A stretch of DNA of 64,000 nucleotides from an uncultured Isosphaeraceae bacterium (GTDB lineage Bacteria; Planctomycetota; Planctomycetia; Isosphaerales; Isosphaeraceae). The position numbers and the translations under genes were made by a program. Each line of letters begins with the position of its first letter. Positions within the stretch are counted from its first letter, which is position 1. This document shows, piece after piece, positions 48,485 through 54,585 of this stretch. The notes beneath the pieces are model-generated. The model made no database searches. It was not told the DNA's origin and was given only the letters and a program-made list of their open reading frames with translations. Location of the stretch: positions 558,001 through 622,000 of the forward strand of contig CAMFLR010000004.1 of NCBI GenBank assembly GCA_945957605.1. The letters are read 5' to 3'.

Positions 48485-49633
48485 ATGCCTGAAACCCGTC
48501 CTCGTCCCGAGCGGATCGATCTCTCCCAGGCGGACGATATTCGCGACGTTGTCCATCGTGCTGTTGCATGCCTGGCGACTGGCGGAATCGCGGCGTTGCC
48601 GACCGAAACTGGCTTCGCGATCGCCGCATCGGCGCTTCATCCCGAAGCGGTCTCTCGCCTGATTGCTGCTGCGCGGGCCGTCGCTCCGCATCCCGACACT
48701 CCGCATCGTTCCGTCCTGCTCCTGCGCGGCGAGACCGAGGCCGTCGACTGGGCACCGGGACTCTCGCAGCTTGCCGGTCGCTTCGTCCAACGCGCCTGGC
48801 CTGGACCAATCGCGCTGGCACTGCCCGTCGGCAAGAACGCCGGCCTCGCGACACAACTTGCCGAGCCGGTTCGCAATGCGCTAATTGCTAACGATTCGAT
48901 CGCACTTCGAGTTCCAGCGAACGGCCTTCTCCGCGAAATCATGCGGCTGACGCCAGGACCACTCATCGCGATCGACCTTACCGACGCCGCGAAAGCTGCC
49001 GGCGGCTACGAGCGGCTCGCATCCGAGGAAGCGGCGATCGACCTGATCGTCGATCAGGGGCACACGCGCGACGACCAACCCGCGACGATCGTTGAAGTGC
49101 GCGACAACGCCTGGCAGATCGTCGCCCCAGGCGCGGCAAGCCGAGGTGATATCGCCTCGATGGCCGGAAACCTCTGGCTCTTCATCTGCACAGGAAACAC
49201 CTGCCGCAGCCCGATGGCCGAGGCGCTTTGCAAGGTGACGCTCGCCAAACGGCTCGGTTGCACCATCGACGAACTGGCCGAACGTGGCTACGTCATCATG
49301 TCGGCTGGTGTTTATGCTTCTGAAGGAATGCCGGCGGCGACTCATGCGGTCGACGTCGTGTCGATGCGTGGCGGATCGCTCAAACGGCACTCAAGCCGTC
49401 GAGTAAATGAAGCATTAGTTCAGCGCGCCGACCGGATTTTCGCGATGGCCGGCGAGCATTTGGAAGTCTTGCTCGACTACGCCCCCGAAGTCGCCGATCG
49501 CGCGCGGCTCTTGCATCCGCAAGGGCTCGACATCGCCGACCCCATTGGCTCCGACCGGGCGAATTACCAGGCCACAGCGCGTGAGATCGAAGAGGCGATC
49601 GCCGCCTTTCTCGACCGCCTCGGCATCAAATAA
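48485..49633 (+). CDS. Fusion of a degenerate YrdC/Sua5 domain and an LMW protein-tyrosine phosphatase
   Basis: 382 aa. Residues 15-215 align in order with YrdC/Sua5 (GGIAALPTETGFAIAASAL, FVQRAWPGPIALALPV, IALRVPANGLLREIM, PATIVEVRDNAWQIVAPGA), but the KxR substrate motif and the TSAN block are missing. Residues 229-382 are a low-molecular-weight phosphatase: FICTGNTCRSPMAEAL with C235-x5-R241 and the general acid in ADPIGSDR (D352). The phosphatase half looks active; the YrdC half may have another role. Overlaps the convergent protease gene by 8 bases. Confidence 0.88.
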   Translation: MPETRPRPERIDLSQADDIRDVVHRAVACLATGGIAALPTETGFAIAASALHPEAVSRLIAAARAVAPHPDTPHRSVLLLRGETEAVDWAPGLSQLAGRFVQRAWPGPIALALPVGKNAGLATQLAEPVRNALIANDSIALRVPANGLLREIMRLTPGPLIAIDLTDAAKAAGGYERLASEEAAIDLIVDQGHTRDDQPATIVEVRDNAWQIVAPGAASRGDIASMAGNLWLFICTGNTCRSPMAEALCKVTLAKRLGCTIDELAERGYVIMSAGVYASEGMPAATHAVDVVSMRGGSLKRHSSRRVNEALVQRADRIFAMAGEHLEVLLDYAPEVADRARLLHPQGLDIADPIGSDRANYQATAREIEEAIAAFLDRLGIK

Positions 49634-50609
49634 CCGACAGCCGCCGTCGGGCAACGATCAGTGCAATTCCAGCGAAAAGCAGCCCAGAACCGCCAGGTTC
49701 GGGGACCGTCGTAATCGCGTCGATGAACGCGGTTTTCGAGGAGACGCGCGTCGCGTAGAAACTCTGGCCGACCGGGTTCGGCAGCGCCGGATTGTTGTAA
49801 ACATAGGAATCCGCGCTGCCATAATAGAAGCCGCGGGTGTCGAACATCGCGCCAATGAACGTGTTCGTAAACGATGAGTCGAGCGAGTAGGGGCCGTCGA
49901 CACCATAGTTCACTCCCGCGAGTTTCCAGATACCATCGGTATCCTTGATGAAAACTCCACCGCCCGAATCCCCGACGGAAAGCGTGCTCGAAGGCTGACC
50001 GAGGATCGACGCGGCGGCGGTAAACGTGCCGCTCAGGAAGTCGCCATTCGGGCCGCCCGAAAACGACTCGATTCCCGATACCTGACTCGCGCCCCAGCTC
50101 AAATGACCTGTCGGCCCGCCGGCCCAGGCATATCCTTCGTTGCCTAGCGGCCCAACAATCGCATCGCCGCGCATCGTCCCCGCGCCAAAAACCGCAATCA
50201 CTTTTCCGCCACTGCTCAGTTCGTCGCCGTTGCGGTAGAGCTGAGCGTAACTCGTAAAAGCCTGGGCGACCTGAACCAGCGCAAGATCGCTGCCTGCTGG
50301 GTCGTTGTAAATCGCGGTGACGGTGTAACTCGCACCGTTCTGCACGAATGAGTCACCCAGGTTTCCGCCCAGATGTTTTGCCGTGAGAAAGAAATGCGGT
50401 GCGATCGCGGTCCCCGCGCCAACTTGCCACGTACCTTCGTACTGCCATCCGCTGTCTTGAAAGGAACCGTTCGGGGCCGACTGATTCTGGCCCTCGGAAC
50501 CGCCAAAAACGATAACAGCGTTCGCGGGCGAGACAACGATCAATCCAATACAAATCGGCAAAGAGAAAACGAGCATTCTCCGAACCGAGGCAAACAACGC
50601 GACTTTCAT
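49626..50609 (-). CDS. PEP-CTERM-anchored trypsin-like serine protease
   Basis: 327 aa from the ATG at 50609; a GTG at 50642 overlapping the kinase stop (GTGA) is the other choice. Signal peptide 1-31 (ending SPANA). Trypsin-like triad: H79 in FFLTAKHLGG, D108 in GSDLALVQV, S215 in SVGDSGGGVF. The C-terminus VPEPGGSGLLFAGIALIVARRR is a PEP-CTERM sorting signal: PEP motif, helix, Arg cluster. It is sorted by an exosortase, not seen here. It is coupled to the kinase gene. Confidence 0.85.
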   Translation of the reverse strand: MKVALFASVRRMLVFSLPICIGLIVVSPANAVIVFGGSEGQNQSAPNGSFQDSGWQYEGTWQVGAGTAIAPHFFLTAKHLGGNLGDSFVQNGASYTVTAIYNDPAGSDLALVQVAQAFTSYAQLYRNGDELSSGGKVIAVFGAGTMRGDAIVGPLGNEGYAWAGGPTGHLSWGASQVSGIESFSGGPNGDFLSGTFTAAASILGQPSSTLSVGDSGGGVFIKDTDGIWKLAGVNYGVDGPYSLDSSFTNTFIGAMFDTRGFYYGSADSYVYNNPALPNPVGQSFYATRVSSKTAFIDAITTVPEPGGSGLLFAGIALIVARRRLSVI

Positions 50610-50638
50610 TCGCGCCGACGTCGATTTGGGACTTTCGA

Positions 50639-53600
50639 TCACGACAGCACCGCCTGACCACTTATGACTTCCGTGATCGTGTTCGTGTTCGGTTGGCTCG
50701 CACCATTCAACTCGCCGAGCGGATATCGCACAACATAGTCACGTTCAAGTCCAGGAACCGCGAGCGACGCGATTTCGCCTTCCAATCCTCTTGCCTGCAC
50801 GATAGCTGCGACTGTCGGCTCATTGGCCAGCGCCGCGGTTAAAAGCACATCGCCAGGCTCACAATAACGTGGCAGAGTCGAAGCGATGCGCACCGTCGTC
50901 CCGAAATAATCGAGATGATCGTTAAGCGTCGCGACCATCGCCGAACCGCGATGTACGCCAACTCGCAACCTGAGATGCTTACCCGCCGAGTCGTGCAAGT
51001 TCGCAATCGCCGGCGGAATGGCGAGCGCAGCCTGCACGGCTCCTACTGGGTCCGTGAAGGCCGCAAAAATCCCTTCGTCGACAGTCTTGATCAGCGCGCC
51101 GCCTTCGCGACGAATGATCGAATCAACGGCGCGGAAATATTCATGGATGAGCGCAAATGCCTTGGCATCGCCCAGGTCGGCGTAGAGTTGTTCGGCGCCG
51201 TCAAGCTGTGTGACCAGAAACGTCGCCGTCGCCAGATTGACGAGTTGACCGGGCTCGAGCATTTCGCTTGGGAAAAGCTCGCGGAAAAGAGCAAGCGTTG
51301 AGGCGCGTCCCGCCGTGAGGGCATCCTCGCGCGCTGCTACGCGTTCGATCCGCACGACGACTTCGCGATCGAGATCGTTGCGCACGCTGAAGGCCTGCCC
51401 GCCGGTTCGAAGCGAGCGCGGTAGTTCATCGCCTGGCGGCCGGCTGAGCTTGAGATCCCAGCGATCGCTCGTCGCACGCGGTTCGACGCGGAAATCGACA
51501 GCGAAAGGCAACTGCGGACCGCGGAAACGATATTGCCCTTCGGTTAGCTCAAGGTCGAACTCCACTCGTTCACCAGGCCCGACACGCGTTTGCGCAGCAA
51601 CGTGCGGCGAATGAGCGGGACCGCCCACGCAATACACAGCGAGATCGGTGTGACGAATCGACGCATCGGCGCGGAAAATCAGCTCGACCGAATTCGCGAA
51701 ATCAAGCTCGTAATCGCTCTGGCATGCCTGGCAATTGCCGTGTTCGCGCATGGCCCGCAATGTATCGAGCACTTGCGAAGGAATTCGGCAAATCGGGCAG
51801 AGTAAATCCCAGTGCAGGCTGAGCACCCCATCCTTCGCGCCAAGGAGACACATCGTCACGATCGCGTTCGGGTCGACCGTCAACCTCCGCGCCAGTGCCA
51901 GGGGGCGAATTCGCGCGACCTCTTGCGAAGGGGCATGCGCGAGAAACTCTCCAAACTGTTCGACCGCGATCGGATCGAGCCCGCGCTGACTCATGCGATC
52001 GAGCCAAGCATCGAGCCGGGTTTGTTGCTCCTTTGGCAGTTCGGTGGCAACTTCAAATGGGTCGGTCGTCCCTTCGTTGCCGAGCTTGCCTGAAACCGCC
52101 ATGTCGATTCGGTGATAAACCCCGGTCACCGTCTTCTTACCACGCAGGCCAACTTCAACCGCCGCAATCGTTCGCCCTAACATCCCTCGGGCCGAGATAC
52201 GGACGCGATGATGCAGAGTCGTTCCACCGTTTGCCTTGGGCTCTAGCTCGACAATGCTCACAAACCAGCGAAATGGCCCTTCGGGATACTCGCGAACGAC
52301 CCCGAACCGACGACCTTCGATCCACTCAAACGGATGCTCGCGCCAGGCAACGTTCATCCCCATCTTGCGGAATTCGCCGATCCGCTTGAGTCCGCCCTCG
52401 CCATCGGATTCGAGCTTGTATTCAACGGCAGGAATCCCGACCGCCTTGTTCAGCCGTTCTGTGTTGGAGACGTGCGGCCAGAGCTTGGCGGGGCTCGCTT
52501 CAAGATCGAACCGCCAGTCGAATTCGACGAGGTCTTTTTTGTCGCTCTCAGGCAGCTTCGGGTGAACGGCAATCCCCGTCGGCTCGCCGCGCAGAAGGCG
52601 CTCGATATCGACGAGCATCGCGGCCGCATCGGCATATCGCTGACTCGGCAGCTTCGCGAGTGATTTGCTGATGAGTTGCGCCACACCGTCGCTCACTTGC
52701 GAGTTGAACGATTTCAACTCCGGCGGCGGCTCGTTGCGGTGCATGGCAATCACGGCGAGCGGCGTCGGCCCGAGGAACGGCGGCCGCCCGGCCAGCAGGT
52801 GGAACAGCGTGGCGCCTAGCGAATAAACATCGCTTCGCGCGTCGATCGCGCCGCCCATGCATTGCTCGGGGCTCATGTAAAGTGGCGTGCCGAGTATCGT
52901 TCCCGCCTGAGTCATCACCAGCGAATCATTCTCAATCACATGCCGTGCGAGCCCGAAGTCCGAGAGCTTTACCCGAGGCGCCTCTGCCGAATCTTCAGCC
53001 CCATTGCCAAGCATCAAGATATTTTCGGGCTTAACGTCACGGTGAACGATCATTCGCTCGTGGGCAATCGCCAGGGCGCGAGCAACCTCGGCGGCGATCG
53101 TCAGCGCGGCCGATTCGGAAAGCTTGCCGCGCTGCGAGACGTACTCGTGTGCGTTCACGCCACGCACGAATTCGATCGCGAGATAATGCAGCCCGTCGTC
53201 TTCATTCAACTCGAGAAAATTCGTAACGTGCGGGCTATTCACCTCGGCGAGCATCCGCGCTTCTTTCAAGAAACGCTTCAGCGACTCTGGCCGCGCGGCA
53301 TAGTTCGGGCTTAGAAGTTTGATCGCGACTTCTCGGCCGTCGGCCATGTCAATCGCACGATAAACGGCTCCCATACCGCCCTGGCCAAGCTTCTCCGCCA
53401 GTTTGTACCGACCCAGGCGTTGGCGATGCTCGATTGGTTCATCGGAAATGGGCGGCAGTGCGGTGGTTCGCGGCGGAATGAGCGGAATGCCCGAAGGATC
53501 GGTTCGCGCCACCGCGTTGATATCCGCCGTTTCGCCGCTGACTTCCATCGCCTTCCAGACGTCGAGCGCCATGGCAACTTCGCGCGCGGATGGACGTTCG

Positions 53601-54271
53601 AGCGGGTCGAGCGCCAGCATGCGCTTGGCGAGATGGTCGAGCGACTTTTCGCCGATCTGAAATTCCTGTTCCCAGGGCAGGCTGCCGGTAACAAGCCAGA
53701 TGAACACCACACCAAGCGCAAAAACATCGGCCGGCGGTTCGGCCACGTAGCCAGCCATGCACGCTTCGGGTGATCGGCATGCGGGAGTCAACTCGTTGAG
53801 TTCGAGAGTCGTATTGCCGACGTCGAGATGCGACCAATCAACCTTGGGACGCATCGAGTCAGGAAGAAGAACCGAGCTCGGGCTGAACGCCTCATGCACG
53901 ATCCCGAGCTTGTGAGCCGCTGCCATTCCGCAGGCGAGTTCGCGGACGAGCGAAACGGCCTGCGACCGATCCCAGGCGCGGCCGTCGTGGCGGTCGGCCA
54001 GGGTAGGAGCCTCAGCCCACTCTAAAACGGCGTAAGGGCGGTCACCTTCGGGCGCGAAGTCGATCAACCTCACACCGACCGGATCTTCCAGAAGTGCGAG
54101 CGTTTTGAGTCGTTTCTCGACGGCACCCCAGCGATCGGGCCGAGCCTTGGCGGCGGCGAGCACGCGGATCTCGACACGTTCGCGCGTCGATTCAATGTCG
54201 CCCGAAAAGCAAACACCATCGGTACCCGCGCCAAGCTGTGCGATTGCGCGATACCGGCCAAGGTTCATCAT
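50639..54271 (-). CDS. Pseudokinase-kinase-START-zinc-pseudocyclase protein
   Basis: 1210 aa from the ATG at 54271; the open frame begins at a TTG farther back. Residues 7-240: kinase fold without VAIK Lys, HRD or DFG (pseudokinase). 289-560: active Ser/Thr kinase with GQGGMGAVY, K318, HRDVKPEN (410-417), DFG (438-440) and SPE. 583-725: SRPBCC/START-like (FDLEASPAKLWPHVSNTERLN). 820-868: zinc ribbon CPIC (825-828) and CQAC (847-850), DUF5939-like. 1014-1145: class III cyclase fold lacking both metal Asp (Q1022, E1066) and the Asn/Arg pair (R1128, T1132). No membrane helix. Upstream of, and coupled to, the PEP-CTERM protease gene. Confidence 0.88.
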   Translation of the reverse strand: MMNLGRYRAIAQLGAGTDGVCFSGDIESTRERVEIRVLAAAKARPDRWGAVEKRLKTLALLEDPVGVRLIDFAPEGDRPYAVLEWAEAPTLADRHDGRAWDRSQAVSLVRELACGMAAAHKLGIVHEAFSPSSVLLPDSMRPKVDWSHLDVGNTTLELNELTPACRSPEACMAGYVAEPPADVFALGVVFIWLVTGSLPWEQEFQIGEKSLDHLAKRMLALDPLERPSAREVAMALDVWKAMEVSGETADINAVARTDPSGIPLIPPRTTALPPISDEPIEHRQRLGRYKLAEKLGQGGMGAVYRAIDMADGREVAIKLLSPNYAARPESLKRFLKEARMLAEVNSPHVTNFLELNEDDGLHYLAIEFVRGVNAHEYVSQRGKLSESAALTIAAEVARALAIAHERMIVHRDVKPENILMLGNGAEDSAEAPRVKLSDFGLARHVIENDSLVMTQAGTILGTPLYMSPEQCMGGAIDARSDVYSLGATLFHLLAGRPPFLGPTPLAVIAMHRNEPPPELKSFNSQVSDGVAQLISKSLAKLPSQRYADAAAMLVDIERLLRGEPTGIAVHPKLPESDKKDLVEFDWRFDLEASPAKLWPHVSNTERLNKAVGIPAVEYKLESDGEGGLKRIGEFRKMGMNVAWREHPFEWIEGRRFGVVREYPEGPFRWFVSIVELEPKANGGTTLHHRVRISARGMLGRTIAAVEVGLRGKKTVTGVYHRIDMAVSGKLGNEGTTDPFEVATELPKEQQTRLDAWLDRMSQRGLDPIAVEQFGEFLAHAPSQEVARIRPLALARRLTVDPNAIVTMCLLGAKDGVLSLHWDLLCPICRIPSQVLDTLRAMREHGNCQACQSDYELDFANSVELIFRADASIRHTDLAVYCVGGPAHSPHVAAQTRVGPGERVEFDLELTEGQYRFRGPQLPFAVDFRVEPRATSDRWDLKLSRPPGDELPRSLRTGGQAFSVRNDLDREVVVRIERVAAREDALTAGRASTLALFRELFPSEMLEPGQLVNLATATFLVTQLDGAEQLYADLGDAKAFALIHEYFRAVDSIIRREGGALIKTVDEGIFAAFTDPVGAVQAALAIPPAIANLHDSAGKHLRLRVGVHRGSAMVATLNDHLDYFGTTVRIASTLPRYCEPGDVLLTAALANEPTVAAIVQARGLEGEIASLAVPGLERDYVVRYPLGELNGASQPNTNTITEVISGQAVLS

Positions 54272-54385
54272 CGACGCGTTCCAGGGACAGTTAACGACCG
54301 CTCGTTTAACTGTATGAGACTCCAAACGGCAGGTCGCCGCAATGATCTACCCTTGTGGACGCCTGTCGATTGAATGCAACGCGCG

Positions 54386-54495: not shown

Positions 54496-54585
54496 TTATT
54501 TCTTGCGGTGACGGATCCTGCTGCGCATACGGCGCTTCTTGCGACCGACCTTGCGGCGACCCTTACCTCGGCGACGGCTGGCCAT
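54496..54585 (-). CDS. Tiny Arg/Lys-rich AURKAIP1/COX24-domain (bS22-like) protein
   Basis: 29 aa, ATG at 54585, stop TAA at 54496. The peptide is almost all Arg, Lys and Gly: MASRRRGKGRRK, then GRKKRRMRSRIRHRKK. This is the pattern of the small AURKAIP1/COX24 ribosome-associated proteins (bS22 and mS38 relatives), and planctomycetes have very short versions. AGGAG lies about 11 bases upstream and a strong terminator follows. Too short for common gene finders, so it is often missed. It should bind 16S rRNA. Confidence 0.85.
   Translation of the reverse strand: MASRRRGKGRRKVGRKKRRMRSRIRHRKK

Follow-up and report, generated by a model that had tools for sequence, protein, structure and literature searches.

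One gene of the window (the whole stretch of 64,000 nucleotides of DNA analysed here, from an uncultured Isosphaeraceae bacterium) encodes a predicted protein in which a complete Ser/Thr kinase stands between a pseudokinase and a class III cyclase fold devoid of its catalytic residues. In the reading that we favour, to which a probability of about 60% can be given, this protein is a Ser/Thr kinase regulated by a former adenylate cyclase: an enzyme composed of START-like, DUF5939 and cyclase parts would have been fused to the kinase and, having lost catalysis, would now serve as its regulatory module. The architecture belongs to a family and is not a one-off.

Architecture of the window protein

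The predicted protein has 1228 amino acids if translation starts at the TTG at 54325, and 1210 if it starts at the ATG at 54271. Residue numbers are counted here from the TTG; those of an earlier sequence-only reading, counted from the ATG, are lower by 18. According to family HMMs, the order of domains is: (i) pseudokinase; (ii) Ser/Thr kinase; (iii) START-like domain; (iv) DUF5939 with a CxxC/CxxC knuckle; and (v) class III cyclase fold (Table 1). Pfam recognises two Pkinase stretches, DUF5939 and Guanylate_cyc, with Polyketide_cyc2 below its cut-off. The sequence-only reading had listed pseudokinase, kinase, START-like, zinc and dead cyclase domains, and both the HMMs and the residue alignment bear out that list in detail.

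Table 1. Features of the kinase gene and of its predicted product (residues counted from the TTG at 54325)
Feature	Position in window	Strand	Basis
Whole kinase gene, from ATG	50639..54271	-	ORF open back to TTG 54325
Pseudokinase, residues 21-266	53528..54265	-	family HMM, AlphaFold model
Complete Ser/Thr kinase, residues 303-583	52577..53419	-	family HMMs, motif alignment
START/SRPBCC-like domain, residues 592-740	52106..52552	-	HMMs, model
DUF5939 core, residues 768-895	51641..52024	-	Pfam, family HMM
CPIC...CQAC, probable zinc knuckle, residues 843-868	51722..51799	-	pattern check
Beta-rich linker of the module, residues 896-1025	51251..51640	-	family HMM, AlphaFold model
Class III cyclase-fold domain without catalytic residues, residues 1028-1190	50756..51244	-	HMMs, alignment, fold match
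Q1040, at metal Asp 1	51206..51208	-	alignment
K1080, adenine-recognising Lys, kept	51086..51088	-	alignment to Ma1120
E1084, at metal Asp 2	51074..51076	-	alignment
D1139, adenine-recognising Asp, kept	50909..50911	-	alignment to Ma1120
R1146, at transition-state Asn	50888..50890	-	alignment
T1150, at transition-state Arg	50876..50878	-	alignment

The first domain has a kinase fold in its AlphaFold model (pLDDT 88) and lacks both the ATP-binding Lys and the catalytic Asp, as expected of a pseudokinase. In the alignment, the ATP Lys and the alpha-C Glu are both replaced by Arg, and HRD by HEA. Its DFG site most likely reads DWS, a call made by eye (the mixed family alignment puts the site elsewhere), so the Asp may remain and the motif alone be lost. 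Hence, of the Lys, HRD and DFG that were said to be missing from this domain, the loss of the first two is confirmed, but the Asp of the third is possibly kept. The second kinase was described as complete, and the alignment agrees: Lys, alpha-C Glu, HRD and DFG are all present, which suggests an active Ser/Thr kinase. The motif and residue alignments accordingly support a live-looking kinase with a pseudokinase on one side and a dead cyclase on the other. The same division holds across the family, where each catalytic residue of the second kinase is kept in 69-71 of 71 sequences, and Lys and Glu are absent from all 47 pseudokinases, with Arg for Glu in 41 (two of the 49 pseudokinases and one of the 72 second kinases were too short to be counted).

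HMM typing places the START-like and zinc parts in one module with DUF5939 and the cyclase; this module also exists without kinases, and the catalytic residues are then kept. DUF5939 (PF19363) scores 45.2 bits against a cut-off of 22.5. For the START-like part, PF10604 (Polyketide_cyc2, SRPBCC/START-like) reaches 22.1 bits, under its cut-off of 27.4, and matches 3 of 13 module sequences at E <= 0.01. In the AlphaFold model of the C-terminal module (pLDDT 81), the order of strands and helices in this region is, as judged by eye, that of a helix-grip fold. Structure prediction took as input 10 pseudokinase and 13 module sequences, from the window and the genome_contigs loci.

The cyclase domain scores 30.6 bits with Guanylate_cyc (cut-off 21.9). 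A fold search with the module model returned the class III cyclase fold, with Z 21.6 to both 1ybu and 4wp8 and an rmsd of 1.9, over 152 aligned residues of Rv1900c (1ybu) and 156 of Ma1120 (4wp8); these matches reflect the cyclase domain and are uninformative on the START-like and DUF5939 parts. Of the features of an active cyclase, the fold and the adenine-recognising Lys and Asp are present, and the metal Asp pair and the Asn/Arg pair are absent. The four losses reported earlier as Q1022, E1066, R1128 and T1132 are all correct, and correspond to Q1040, E1084, R1146 and T1150. By counting along the alignment, with residue numbers as given in PMC4215837, K1080 and D1139 correspond to K101 and D157 of Ma1120, which, according to that source, recognise adenine. 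The kept pair points to adenine nucleotides, as a class, as candidate ligands. The earlier suggestion that the dead cyclase might bind a nucleotide or act as a structural sensor is in line with this, and nothing contradicts it.

Searched against its own genome (8.8 Mb), the window protein has 115 matches, the majority of which do not extend beyond the kinase region. There is one full-length paralogue (L111:3395-7138, plus strand, equal to G000:C31) with 44% identity, and its cyclase is also dead, with AERR at the four catalytic positions. Among the named relatives of full length, almost all are planctomycete records; an Isosphaeraceae MAG, with 63%, comes closest. No plasmid record matches more than 80% of the whole protein or of its C-terminal module.

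Directly downstream of the kinase gene, and co-directional with it, lies a trypsin-like gene (49626-50642, minus strand) with a PEP-CTERM-like tail, whose first possible start overlaps the kinase stop by 4 bases. Its relatives adjoin the kinase in two further loci (L027 and L029). A conserved operon was rejected: these two loci also share neighbouring housekeeping genes, and no neighbour is common to all 10 loci compared. Just upstream of the kinase gene there is a tiny ORF (54496-54585, minus strand) of 29 residues, very basic and Arg/Lys-rich, which may resemble AURKAIP1/COX24-type small ribosomal proteins. A defence system was likewise rejected, since the kinase domain, a generic one, accounts for the PADLOC matches listed (best PD-T4-6, 7.4e-103).

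Kinase fusion and loss of cyclase catalysis

PF19363 is present in 17 of 59 close relatives, 49 of 392 phylum-drawn genomes and 66 of 397 class-drawn genomes, three draws that overlap. Altogether, 123 distinct DUF5939 ORFs were typed with HMMs built from the family; they include 14 named loci (two of them from Chloroflexi/Anaerolinea MAGs), and six of 47 later-collected ORFs that were identical to earlier ones were counted once. Three groups were distinguished: (i) 72 kinase-fused ORFs (two N-terminal kinases in 49, one in 21, and a C-terminal kinase in 2), the number of kinases in ORFs at contig edges (e.g., L036, L238) being a minimum; (ii) 47 un-fused ORFs with an intact N-terminus; and (iii) 4 ORFs truncated by contig ends and kept apart (L037, DEGL; L183, DDNR; L190, DDNR; L265, RENQ). 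A further cut ORF (L040, REMR) was dropped, as DUF5939 is no longer present in it. The cyclase domain is not readable in 5 fused and 3 un-fused ORFs. As for the earlier statement that no description of the five-part order was known, none was found, but the order is not unique, as the 49 ORFs with two N-terminal kinases attest; the many described proteins of exactly this order that had been named as evidence against it exist as sequences, with no descriptions found in the literature.

Among the kinase-fused ORFs, the cyclase domain is readable in 67, and none of these keeps both metal Asp; a separate pattern check found no fused ORF with both metal motifs. None of the four catalytic residues is left in 22 of the 67, one in 32, two in 12, three in 1 and all four in 0. 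By contrast, the full set is present in 43 of the 44 un-fused ORFs with an intact N-terminus (the exception, L165, reads DENR). The one complete un-fused ORF found in the class of the window's bacterium (L239, 612 amino acids) has the full set, DDNR. Both ORFs with a C-terminal kinase (L202:3540-6581, plus strand; L204, 1015 amino acids) consist of START-like, DUF5939, remnant cyclase and then kinase; their cyclase domains diverge strongly (family HMM scores of 47 and 37 bits, the domain of L202 being missed by Pfam), so their residue calls are weak. Two proteins with the full catalytic set, L194 (1517 amino acids) and L175 (890 amino acids), carry long extensions at the N-terminus, and no kinase was found there.

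It is very unlikely that the cyclase still works, whether with its altered residues or paired with another cyclase in a heterodimer. Unusual class III cyclases do exist, and Ma1120 is active although Ala replaces the Asn (PMC4215837), so the missing Asn alone is not decisive. Moreover, metal Asp 2 is replaced by Glu in 33 of 67 fused ORFs, a residue that might still hold one metal, and the same genome carries other cyclase domains, three of which (L001, L002 and L003, in 3.5-kb loci without a kinase match) keep all four residues as judged by eye. Against this, 50 of the 67 have Arg, Glu, Gln, Ala or Ser at the position of metal Asp 1, and the window domain lacks both the metal pair and the Asn/Arg pair; neither half of a composite site could be supplied by it, which makes a working heterodimer unlikely.

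The adenine-recognising Lys and Asp follow a different pattern, both being present in 39 of the 45 two-kinase ORFs, 8 of the 20 with one kinase, 0 of the 2 with a C-terminal kinase and 43 of the 44 un-fused ones. Catalysis has thus been given up in all fused members examined, and base recognition appears to be kept mainly in the two-kinase proteins. Since this is the group of the window protein, the pattern both motivates the reading of the dead cyclase as a nucleotide sensor and limits it: judging by the one-kinase and C-terminal-kinase ORFs, nucleotide binding would not be general. Alternatively, the dead module might be a scaffold, with the cyclase fold dimerising or docking, the START-like domain fixing location or substrate, and no ligand sensed by the cyclase fold. 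Five core positions of the fused cyclase domains are kept at 97-100% while the pocket residues drift, and the scarcity of the adenine pair among one-kinase members points the same way; its retention in the two-kinase members exceeds what a scaffold needs, unless Lys and Asp are kept for structural reasons, as they could be. We regard this alternative as rather unlikely, yet worth weighing.

Selection bears on whether the module does anything at all. The dN/dS of the cyclase domain is 0.09-0.21 (7 close pairs, not all independent, as three lie among L032, L033 and L034), that of the live kinase 0.05-0.19 (7 close pairs) and that of the pseudokinase 0.09-0.32 (five two-kinase pairs; in the two single-kinase pairs, the row for the first kinase refers to the live kinase and was left aside). 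The values for the cyclase indicate that the dead domain is maintained by purifying selection. They argue against the module being functionless baggage in decay after the fusion, as does the finding of no frame break in the 67 fused ORFs that reach through the cyclase domain. Likewise, the CxxC pairs are present in 70 of 72 fused ORFs, and both misses are cut at or near contig ends. Catalytic residues that drift freely, together with a mean cyclase-domain conservation of 0.42 in fused versus 0.60 in un-fused proteins, would fit such decay, which we nonetheless consider highly improbable.

The number of fusion events was estimated from trees of DUF5939 plus linker, with the cyclase columns left out, for 75 ORFs (without 41 ORFs added later). 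Fusion labels are clustered on the tree. With the contig-cut L037 uncounted, there are two label changes on a quick tree and one on a careful tree, where the support for a joint fused clade is 47/75. Two independent fusions were, therefore, not retained as a firm claim, and "one or two" is the appropriate wording. Because the careful tree allows all fused ORFs to form one clade, fusion and catalytic loss may be one historical coincidence: their link rests on few independent events, and the large contrast in counts reflects one or two events plus later drift of residues inside one clade. The link is, in consequence, an association and not a demonstrated rule. A wider rule, that a kinase joined to a cyclase means a dead cyclase, was rejected for want of cases: the one additional example in the same genome, a kinase-cyclase-AAA-TPR protein of 1454 amino acids (L279:1269-5630, plus strand), appears to be without metal Asp 1 and keeps Asp 2, Asn and Arg.

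A possible mode of regulation

Dimers are the working form of class III cyclases, and bacterial kinases of the PknB type become active when they dimerise. The regulated kinase that we favour would have arisen from a START-like, DUF5939 and class III cyclase enzyme, later fused to a kinase; in the fused line, cyclase catalysis would have been lost and the fold kept, together with the adenine pair in most two-kinase members. In the un-fused module, it is presumably the cyclase dimer that responds to ligand binding; in the fused module, it would be the kinase. A hydrophobic ligand in the START-like pocket may change the dimer of the cyclase-fold module; perhaps ATP, ADP, AMP or cAMP in the dead cyclase also shifts it. 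Such a change would bring two kinase domains together or apart and, in this way, control trans-autophosphorylation. The pseudokinase, which also stands before the kinase in most members of the subgroup of the window protein, might be a further brake or a dimer partner.

A more far-reaching version is put forward tentatively: a whole adenylate cyclase may have become an adenine-nucleotide receptor, discarding catalysis, keeping base recognition and having as output the gating of a Ser/Thr kinase instead of cAMP. In any case, the family presents, in nature, a before and an after (one module, whose cyclase looks live when it stands alone and is dead when joined to a kinase), in which the conversion of a signal-producing enzyme into a signal receptor can be studied directly. 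Besides, two dead domains around one live kinase provide a test of pseudoenzyme control in kinase-rich bacteria.

Comparison with known systems

No description of the architecture of the window protein was found in the literature searched on planctomycete kinases with cyclases, pseudokinases, inactive cyclases and SRPBCC plus cyclase, as judged mostly from abstracts. DUF5939 is not named in the literature searched, whose scope leaves out most subscription papers. The un-fused cyclases L038 (Chloroflexi MAG) and L239 (Planctomycetia) have the same C-terminal module in the same order as the window protein, but they are without kinase and keep all four catalytic residues. PknB/StkP-type kinases share the kinase domain: the match to PknB_PASTA_kin (NCBIfam; 335.6 bits, below the cut-off of 450) covers the kinase alone, and the window protein has a START/cyclase-fold part instead of an extracellular sensor. 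The TOMM kinase/cyclase fusion (TIGR03903) also joins kinase and cyclase in one chain; nevertheless, the window protein reaches 129.9 bits with it, missing the cut-off of 705.75, the best stretch lies in the kinase, and nothing indicates a DUF5939 module common to both.

Taken one by one, the ideas involved have analogous precedents in degenerate GGDEF receptors and in receptor guanylyl cyclases. LapD and FimX are degenerate GGDEF/EAL receptors in which a dead second-messenger enzyme acts as sensor; they differ from the window protein in messenger family and in output. In receptor guanylyl cyclases, a dead kinase fold controls a working cyclase. Like them, the window protein combines a kinase and a cyclase fold in a single chain, and one of the two is dead and putatively regulatory, but the roles are reversed: the cyclase is dead and the kinase complete, with a second, dead kinase added. 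If the tentative version set out above is true, these proteins would be a family of adenine-nucleotide-receptor kinases, the mirror image of receptor guanylyl cyclases.
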